NCBI GenBank assembly: GCA_034716895.1
Contig: JAYEKW010000006.1
Span: 1 to 53,637 of the forward strand
Source of the DNA: Candidatus Neomarinimicrobiota bacterium
Lineage (GTDB): Bacteria > Fidelibacterota > UBA8477 > JABMPR01
DNA: 53,637 nucleotides
Direction: 5' to 3'
Position numbers and translations under genes: made by a program. A model generated the notes under the pieces. The model was given only the letters and a program-made list of their open reading frames with translations. It did not search any database and had not been told where the DNA came from. The stretch's first letter is position 1. Each line of letters opens with the position of its first letter. Positions 25,402-28,219 of this stretch are shown here, one piece after another.

Positions 25402-26034
25402 ATGTCTAGAATCACCGCAATCACCCAACAAAAAAAACTGCAACACCGTTTCAATCTGTTTGTCGATGGCAAATTCGAGATCGGTGTTGATGGTTCTCTG
25501 GTTATCAAATATGACCTGAAGACCGGTGACCCTTACACCGCTGAATTGCAGCATAATCTTGAGAATGATGACCGAGTGGAGCTGGCCTATACCGGGCTGT
25601 TGAATTTCATCGCATACCGGGAACGCTGTGAGTTTGAAGTTATGCAATGGTTATTCAAAAAAGGTTATTCAGATCTTGAAGATGACCTGGTCAAGCGCCT
25701 TAAGGATAAAAATTATCTCAACGATTCCAGGTTTGCCCGGCTCTTTATCCGTGATCGGGTAAAATTGAAAGGTTGGGGTCCAAACCGTTTGCGGAATGAA
25801 TTATTTTCCAAAAGAATTGGTAAAAATATCATTGAGGATGAGCTTGAGATCATTCGCCAGGACTATGATTTTGATCAAATGGCTGCCGAGCAGATCCAGC
25901 GAAAAGTGAAATATCTAACGCATCCAACATTCAAGGATAAAAAACGCCTATGGACTTTCCTGCAACGCAGGGGTTTCGAAAGTTCTTCCATCACTTTGGC
26001 TCTGTCTCAGATTGAATTTACTGACGACATTTAA
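25402..26034 (+). CDS. recX: RecA regulator RecX
   Basis: This 210-residue protein has the three-helix repeats of RecX (FIAYRERCEFEVMQWL, LKDKNYLNDSRFARLFIRDRV, WGPNRLRNELFSK). It binds the RecA filament and modulates it. I chose the ATG at 25402; the TTG at 25372 lies directly behind the hairpin. Neither start has a strong ribosome site. Its stop codon is the first part of the foldback element. Confidence 0.88.
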   Translation: MSRITAITQQKKLQHRFNLFVDGKFEIGVDGSLVIKYDLKTGDPYTAELQHNLENDDRVELAYTGLLNFIAYRERCEFEVMQWLFKKGYSDLEDDLVKRLKDKNYLNDSRFARLFIRDRVKLKGWGPNRLRNELFSKRIGKNIIEDELEIIRQDYDFDQMAAEQIQRKVKYLTHPTFKDKKRLWTFLQRRGFESSSITLALSQIEFTDDI

Positions 26035-26440
26035 AAATAATTATGGCTCATCGCCATAATGCGTACCTGGAGACGAGGATATTGGGGATATAAGGGTATA
26101 GAGGCTGTGTGAAAATAGGGACAACACTTACCCCATGCTTTAGCTTGGGGGTATGATAACCTACTATTTCCTAGGGCTTTAGCCCAGTATTGTTGGGCTA
26201 AAGCCCTCCTTTTTTAATGTTTTTATAACCCCCAGGCTGAAGCCTGGGGTAAGTGTCATTATTAACAGCACTATACGTAGATTGCTAAAGGTAATATTAG
26301 CAAGCAATTATTCCATTGCAATGAAGTTTCCACACAGCCTCTATAACCCTTATACCTTTATACCCCAGAATATGTTATTGACCCCCAATCTCAATGATTG
26401 TATCCAGGTACGCATTATTATAATGAACCATAATTATTTT
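26034..26440. repeat. Foldback (MITE-like) element between convergent genes
   Basis: The outer arms (about 26034-26115 and 26328-26440) are long imperfect inverted repeats: aaaataattatgg, ataatgcgtacctgga and ctatagaggctgtgtg-like blocks return in reverse order on the right. Inside, cttaccccatgctttagctt (near 26127) pairs with the inverse block near 26229-26255, and agggctttagcccag pairs with ttgggctaaagccct (about 26172-26206), followed by a T-run. No gene is seen. The two arm ends meet the stop codons of recX and of the transporter gene almost exactly. It could be a non-autonomous mobile element and could also end transcription from both sides. Confidence 0.75.
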
Positions 26441-28219
26441 CTACAACGGCCAGATAATGGGTATCAGGATCACACCTACGATCCCCAGAATGATGTGCAG
26501 TGGAATACCGGCCTTCATGAAATCCATATACCGATAGTTACCAGGAGTAAATACCATGGTGTTGGTCTGATAGCCATTTGGGGTCATAAAGGACAGGGAG
26601 GCGGCAAACATGATGGTCATGATGAAAGGCATGGTAGACAAGCCCAGTATTCCGGCGGATTCGATGGCTAATGGGGTCATGATGATGGCTGTGGCTGTGT
26701 GAGATAGGAAAGAGGTCATGATCATGGTCACAAAAAAGAGAATGGCAATCAGACCTATATCACCAAAATTGCCACTAGCTGAGGTTATCAACCCACCGAT
26801 TCGATCAGCCAATCCAATGGTTTGCATGGCAGCCCCCAGGGGGATTAAAGCGGCGATCAGGAAGATAACAGACCAGTTGATAGATTTGTAGGCTTCTTGA
26901 GCAGGGACGATCCCAGTGGCCATTACCACAATAGCACCCAACAGACTGGCCTCCATAATGGACATAATATTTAAAGCAGCTAGACCCACCACGATGGGAA
27001 TGATCGAAACAGCAAGCCACCAGTATTTGATTTTGTGCAGCGTGCAGTCAAGTTCGTCCAACATGATGAAATTTGGATCAGTATTCAAGGCAGACATGCG
27101 GGTCCGGGATCCGAAAATCAGCAGGGTATCGAATTGTCTTAATTTGATGTGACCGATCTTTTTTCTGACGATCTCACGGTAATGGCGAACTGCCAGTACG
27201 AACAGGCCATAACGACGACGAAAATCAATTTCCATGAGGGATGCACCAGCCAGACGTGAATTAGGTGATACCATGGCCTCTACCAGGATGTTCTCATTGT
27301 TAGCCAGTTCGCTATCGTTCATTTTGACATCGGTTAGCAGCAGTACTTTTTGTTCAGATCGAAACTGCTGAAGTTTATCAACGGAGCATTGAACCAGCAT
27401 GATGTCATCAGGTTTGAGTATGATATTTCGCAAATTGGTAGTGATATGCTTAACACCTCGAATTATTTCCAACACGGTGAGTTCATAGGTTGCCCCGAGA
27501 TTCAACTCCAAGAATTTTTTGTCAACCAGAGGAGATTCTTCGGTGAGTTTGACTTCAGTAAGGTAGGTTCCCATGTGATACTTCTGCGTTAGACCGGAAA
27601 CCGGTACTCGGGATGGCAGGATCCAGCGCTGGGCAAGGAGAATATAAGCCGTCGTAACTGCCACCAGGATCACTCCCAGTTTACTCAATTCAAAAACACC
27701 AATATAGAAGCCGGCATCTGTAGCGATATCATTTACAATCAGGTTCGTGGAAGTTCCAATAACAGTACAAGTGCCACCTACAATGGCAGCGTATGATAGG
27801 GGAATCATGATCTTGGATACACTGACCTTCAAGCGATGCGAAAGTTCAGTTGCGACTGGTATCAGGATAGCCACGGTAGCTGTATTGTTGATAAATGCCG
27901 AGAAAATGCTGACTGCCAGTAAAAAGAGGGAGGTCACCGCCCAGTTACGACCCCGTCCATTCTCTTCGAGCCAGACAGTAAACACTCGAATAAAGCCGGT
28001 TTTGGTGAAAGCATGGCTGAGAACGAACATTGCCCCAATGGTAATCACGGCTTTATTTGAGAAACCGGCGATGGCTTCATTCTTATCAACCAACCCGCTA
28101 AGCAGCAGGGCGGCCAAGACCAGCAAAGAAGTGACTTCAATAGGAAACCACTCCCTGATGAAAGCGATCAAAGAAATAAAGAGGATCATGAAGAACAATA
28201 GCGTCTGGGTCTCTGGCAT
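26441..28219 (-). CDS. SLC13/DASS-type transporter with TrkA-C domains
   Basis: This is a 592-residue membrane transporter with about 11 hydrophobic segments. AGFSNKAVITIGAMFVLSHA (about 45-64) and, in the C-terminal half, LSHTATAIIMTPLA are typical of the divalent anion:sodium symporter family. Two RCK_C (TrkA-C) domains sit in the middle (about 190-370; YLTEVKLTEESPLVDKKFLEL, and LVEAMVSPNSRLAGASL), a layout known from the COG0471-like family with sulfate or dicarboxylate substrates. I chose the Met at 28219 because the family starts just before the first membrane segment; upstream Mets at 28246 and 28285 are possible. The substrate is unknown. It converges on recX. Confidence 0.9.
   Translation of the reverse strand: MPETQTLLFFMILFISLIAFIREWFPIEVTSLLVLAALLLSGLVDKNEAIAGFSNKAVITIGAMFVLSHAFTKTGFIRVFTVWLEENGRGRNWAVTSLFLLAVSIFSAFINNTATVAILIPVATELSHRLKVSVSKIMIPLSYAAIVGGTCTVIGTSTNLIVNDIATDAGFYIGVFELSKLGVILVAVTTAYILLAQRWILPSRVPVSGLTQKYHMGTYLTEVKLTEESPLVDKKFLELNLGATYELTVLEIIRGVKHITTNLRNIILKPDDIMLVQCSVDKLQQFRSEQKVLLLTDVKMNDSELANNENILVEAMVSPNSRLAGASLMEIDFRRRYGLFVLAVRHYREIVRKKIGHIKLRQFDTLLIFGSRTRMSALNTDPNFIMLDELDCTLHKIKYWWLAVSIIPIVVGLAALNIMSIMEASLLGAIVVMATGIVPAQEAYKSINWSVIFLIAALIPLGAAMQTIGLADRIGGLITSASGNFGDIGLIAILFFVTMIMTSFLSHTATAIIMTPLAIESAGILGLSTMPFIMTIMFAASLSFMTPNGYQTNTMVFTPGNYRYMDFMKAGIPLHIILGIVGVILIPIIWPL

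Follow-up and report, generated by a model that had tools for sequence, protein, structure and literature searches.

The foldback between convergent recX and transporter genes is very probably an IS1182-type MITE nested within an ISL3-type MITE

We are highly confident that the foldback between the recX and transporter genes in the 53,637-nucleotide stretch of DNA analysed here (the window) is a composite non-autonomous transposon, in which an IS1182-type MITE sits inside an ISL3-type MITE; the nest probably formed first and then spread, with one copy entering the recX/transporter gap. The 385-bp composite contains no transposase gene. The first-pass annotation had noticed the foldback from the letters and suggested a MITE or a two-way terminator, and it missed that the structure consists of two nested MITEs from different transposon families.

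An inverted-repeat search of the window found four pairs of repeats nested one within another: an outermost pair (26034-26074/26400-26440, 41 nt, 85%), a second (26094-26115/26327-26348, 22 nt, 91%), a third formed by the 29-nt arms of the long stem in Table 1 (90%), and an innermost pair (26173-26186/26194-26207, 14 nt, 100%). The + strand RNA folds at -196.5 kcal/mol (z = -12.2) and the - strand RNA is similarly stable (z = -13.0), each compared with 100 shuffles; as none of the 100 shuffles matched the fold stability on either strand, the foldback is far beyond chance. The foldback is therefore real, and RNA folding, which had been proposed as a check, gave very stable structures on both strands; the two inner palindromes are nested, however, as a hairpin within a long stem, and not adjacent. 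What sets the boundaries of the element? The last base of recX is 26034 and, on the - strand, the stop codon of the transporter gene occupies 26441-26443, the two genes being convergent. The reported filling of the gap from 26034 to 26440 is a visible fit, but the element itself is shorter (26045-26429), with an exact 8-bp duplication on either side, and the outermost 8 bp are target-site duplication. Because the ATAATTAT duplication is its own reverse complement, it was mistaken for part of the arms. Once the insert is subtracted, the stop-to-stop gap is 13 bp (AA + ATAATTAT + TTT), and the apparently exact fit arises because the insertion went into the approximately 13 bp between two stop codons.

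Table 1. Features of the composite element and its flanks (positions in the window)
Feature	Positions	Strand	Detail
Left target-site duplication, outer element	26037-26044		ATAATTAT, identical to 26430-26437
Left arm, outer ISL3-ended MITE	26045-26100	+	terminal repeat 26045-26068, GGCTCATCGCCATAATGCGTACCT
Left core duplication	26097-26100		TATA, matches 26342-26345
Core MITE, 241 bp	26101-26341	+	IS1182-type ends GAGGCTGTGTGAAAA (26101-26115) and TTTCCACACAGCCTC (26327-26341)
Long REP-like stem	26124-26256		arms 26124-26152 and 26228-26256
Perfect hairpin, 14-bp arms, then CCTTTTTT	26173-26207	+	intrinsic-terminator-like for recX transcription
Right core duplication	26342-26345		TATA, pairs with 26097-26100
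Right arm, outer ISL3-ended MITE	26342-26429	+	starts with one TATA copy; terminal repeat 26406-26429
Right target-site duplication, outer element	26430-26437		ATAATTAT

The element is far from unique. With positions 26030-26445 as query, 107 matching pieces were found in the genome, a draft assembly of 3.45 Mb in 258 contigs where many such repeats extend to the edge of a contig and some may have been lost. The absence of any other copy, named in the first-pass annotation as grounds for refutation, is therefore not what was seen. Two classes can be told apart among the matches: full-length composites, and copies of the middle 241 bp alone. Ten composite copies, that of the window included, have both ends, and their 8-bp duplications are exact (8/8) in eight, 7/8 in one and unclear in one. 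The duplicated bases vary by copy: ATAATTAT in the window and GTAAAAAT, CATTTTAA, ATAAATAT, CGGATTAT, TTAAATAA, ATATTTAA and AAAATTAT elsewhere. The MITE reading is thus upheld by many copies in the genome, by 8-bp target duplications here and in other composite copies, and by the paralogous empty sites described below. Since nine of the ten composites have matching duplications (7-8/8), all of them different, the nest is likely to have moved as one piece. Across the ten composites, arm distances correlate with core distances (Mantel r 0.39, p 0.01), a correlation that is only moderate and whose direction is as would be expected if arms and core moved together. Within the outer element the core is found in either orientation at one and the same TATA, so that some independent or repeated insertion at a hot spot, inversion between the terminal repeats of the core, or recombination between copies must also have occurred. 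Three core copies (L007, L012 and L013) have flanks from two target types and are either recombinants or draft-assembly joins, and another composite copy (L076, approximately 626-774, contig C117) is broken near its right side by an insert of approximately 150 bp.

The very stable fold could also be taken to mean that the foldback is a gene for a structured non-coding or regulatory RNA, but its copies are mobile and lie in unrelated contexts, and Rfam gave no match even up to E 1; we consider that reading very improbable and rejected it. A plasmid or phage origin was likewise rejected, blastn giving no match for the 385-bp element. The composite element was absent from all of the related genomes searched, where interior pieces alone match, the best of them in the sister species G016 at 75%.

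The outer layer is defined by its ends, which in the aligned edges of the composite copies read GGYTCWTC-N5-AATGCGTACC on both sides; this pattern has 71 sites in the genome, against none for a reversed-pattern control. Its target duplications are 8 bp and A/T-rich. The same end pattern is widespread in named genomes whose records are labelled Bacteroidetes, KSB1, Chlamydiae, Acidobacteria and Planctomycetota, where most of the elements that carry it are 215-450 bp long and many are flanked by A/T-rich duplications of 8 bp. The ISL3-type end GGYTCWTC-N5-AATGCGTACCT can serve as a marker of small elements in genomes so labelled. One of these records, from a KSB1 bacterium (L289), contains a 1316-bp element in which the same ends (GGCTCTTC...AATGCGTAC and GTACGCATT...GATGAACC) enclose an ISL3-family transposase (NF033550, 236 bits, cut-off 180); this identifies the outer element as an ISL3-type MITE. 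Like other ISL3-derived MITEs it shares the terminal inverted repeats, has the 8-bp duplication, and is multicopy, short and free of a transposase gene. A paralogous empty site is available for this end family: a 542-bp member with a different interior in contig C212 corresponds to an uninterrupted sequence in C53, with 119 of 122 bases identical and a single AAAATTAT in C53. The draft assembly holds no autonomous ISL3 partner (PF01610 is absent), such a partner being a usual feature of MITEs. A partner in the same genome is not strictly defining, and orphan MITEs exist. The ISL3 elements of the sister species G009 and G011 were considered as partner and rejected; that of G011 has the ends GGCTCTTCAGCAGAATTTGTGG, whose start is alike and whose remainder is different.

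No outer element lacking the core or another insert was found in the genome. A third insert of approximately 280 bp, with inverted ends (start CGGTATATGGAT, end ATACCATATACCG), occupies the TATA centre of the outer element at L077 (4537-4820, C44) and is also seen at contig edges in C48, C21, C194 and C29, and at L003 the TATA centre holds just a short CGGTATA, possibly an excision footprint. Five members of the ISL3-end family (L174-L178, in contigs C255, C212, C134, C139 and C92) are approximately 310-560 bp long with a different interior that carries REP-like hairpins (ACGGGTTGCACCCGT, ACGGGTTACACCCGT); some of them, L177 for example, include a stretch resembling the 3' end of the Y1/RAYT-like gene of L074.

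The core layer has ends of its own, GAGGCTGTGTGARAA, and its 17-base end TAGAGGCTGTGTGAAAA occurs at 62 genome sites (with at most 2 mismatches; control 0). Approximately 27 nearly full core copies were aligned, some of which lie outside the outer element. Its duplications are 4 bp long, TATA within the outer element and TTAA, TTTA, TTCA, TGGA, TAAA or TATA elsewhere, and the core often sits at the centre of a palindrome. At 13 sites that lie outside the outer element, the duplication shows an identity of 3.2/4 against 2.5 when permuted (p 0.0002), and arm symmetry around the duplication is 4.5/8 against 3.4 for permuted flanks (p 0.006), in a sample in which three sites have hybrid or damaged flanks and some single sites are non-palindromic. 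A filled and empty pair illustrates the event directly: at L022 the core lies within CCCCACGCTTTAGCGTGGGG, and near 7.9 kb of contig C147 an uninterrupted paralogue has a single TTTA in the palindrome. In a sister species, a 1.77-kb element (G013:C164, 2-1775) encodes an IS1182-family transposase (NF033551, 328 bits, cut-off 270) and has GAGGCTGTGTGAGAA on both sides, as in the core; an IS1182 transposase between the same ends makes the core an IS1182-type MITE, with the shared terminal inverted repeats and the 4-bp duplications at palindromic targets of an IS1182-derived element. No IS1182 transposase was found in the draft assembly of the present genome, and DDE_Tnp_1_6 (PF13751) gave no match in it. 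As the assembly has neither an ISL3 nor an IS1182 transposase, the mobilising enzymes are inferred from other species, and ISL3-type and IS1182-type transposases like those of the other genomes would have moved these copies. In the sister species G016, an element of approximately 190 bp at L191 and L192 has the same IS1182-type ends in palindrome-like surroundings (e.g. GCCCCATGCTTTA ... TTTTGTATGGGG). A fourth repeat (CATAGCCACTAAGTCACCAAGACACAAAG ... GTGACTTAGTGTCTTCGTGGC) breaks a core copy at L067 (approximately 1236-1411, C53) and is itself broken by an ISL3-ended element in C212 (L175).

Within the core, the inner palindromes of the first-pass annotation (the 29-nt stem and the hairpin of 14 nt) are REP-like, and similar hairpins that lack a surrounding core recur at other places in the genome and in related genomes of the genus. 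Might the whole be a RAYT-driven cluster of REP or BIME type (a REPIN), with its inner hairpins moved by the Y1 transposases of the genome, which has two Y1_Tnp matches, instead of DDE-type MITEs? Movement of REPs by Y1 enzymes would be expected to generate neither terminal inverted repeats nor target duplications, but both layers have both. We regard this explanation as very unlikely; the two sets of duplications rule it out for the whole element, and it could account at most for the origin of the interior of the core.

Is the position of the nested MITEs between two convergent genes a product of selection, as a bidirectional terminator whose hairpin would form in the RNA from either gene and keep recX and the transporter gene apart? 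The neighbours are convergent, folding is strong on both strands, and on the + strand a good hairpin (26173-26207) precedes the T-run CCTTTTTT, which is terminator-like at the level of sequence. However, the terminator-like sites of the - strand are weak (7-8 pairs, 3 G-C), the anatomy of a mobile element already explains the structure, and 20 other copies lie in 6 convergent, 8 tandem and 6 divergent contexts by crude ORF-based calls. With no preference for, or excess of, convergent gaps among these copies, a selected two-way terminator is unsupported and, in our judgement, unlikely; as a general role it lacks support, copies being found in all gap types and the strong hairpin with its T-run on the + strand only. 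A literature search found no publications on MITEs acting as terminators between convergent genes. Any effect of the element on transcription is plausibly a by-product, the likeliest being that recX transcripts may terminate at the hairpin and T-run at 26173-26215.

A composite of two MITEs suggests the following sequence of events. The 241-bp core, with its REP-like hairpins, would have inserted at a TATA in the middle of the palindrome formed by an ISL3-type MITE of approximately 140 bp without the core. An ISL3-type transposase working on the outer ends would then have spread copies of the nest, approximately 385 bp long, through the genome; the order, core into outer MITE and then spread of the nest, is the probable one. 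One copy would have landed in the interval between the stop codons of recX and the transporter gene, with duplication of ATAATTAT, and an exact empty site at this locus would read as an uninterrupted TAAAAATAATTATTTTCTA junction. In G016 the recX and transporter genes are convergent and lack the element; the orthologous gap is longer and diverged, and so is not an exact empty site. We tentatively suggest, as a possibility that we would put at well below even, that in this genus the IS1182-type transposase selects as targets the tips of hairpins or cruciforms, with a preference for palindromes of REP-like type, and that it duplicates the four bases of the tip and leaves both half-stems in place, so that REPs and both MITE types self-nest. 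If this were true, then, since the core bears the same kind of hairpin as its targets, successive nesting of REPs, IS1182-type MITEs and ISL3-type MITEs would build foldbacks of growing length, and these would spread as units. A striking symmetric structure is here explained by nested mobile elements, which urges caution against reading symmetry in a convergent gap as regulation, and the insertions at palindrome centres with kept stems offer a clear natural data set on the choice of structured targets by IS1182-type elements.

How do the two layers compare with known systems? The ISMac21-related MITE of Methanosarcina acetivorans, of ISL3 type, is 179 bp long with 6 copies (PMC3852290). The outer element resembles such ISL3-derived MITEs in being short and geneless, with ends of approximately 22-24 bp shared with ISL3 and duplications of 7-8 bp, and is unlike them in that it holds a second insert wherever both arms can be read and that the assembly lacks its partner IS. 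The ISMac2-related MITEs of the same species, of IS1182 type, are 160-169 bp (PMC3852290, whose method separates nested elements). The core is similarly short and geneless, with IS1182-shared terminal repeats and the 4-bp duplications found in one of the two listed ISMac2 MITEs; unlike them, it has internal REP-like hairpins and is often at palindrome centres. This targeting is reminiscent of the 'inverted-repeat-replacing' transposition of IS1272, a member of the IS1182 family, in which a target stem-loop is reported to be replaced with no duplication (PMC5678879). Palindromes are the targets in both cases, but here the two half-stems persist and the 4 bases at the centre are duplicated, an outcome similar to that of the loop-duplication branch (6c) of the model in PMC5678879. 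REP and BIME elements, associated with RAYT transposases (PMC2817692), share with our hairpins the clusters of short G+C-rich palindromes and the presence of Y1 transposases in the genome, whereas here DDE-type MITEs carry the hairpins as passengers and also use them as targets. MITEs of both families and the targeting of palindromes by members of the IS1182 family are already on record, and it is their nested form that is unusual here.
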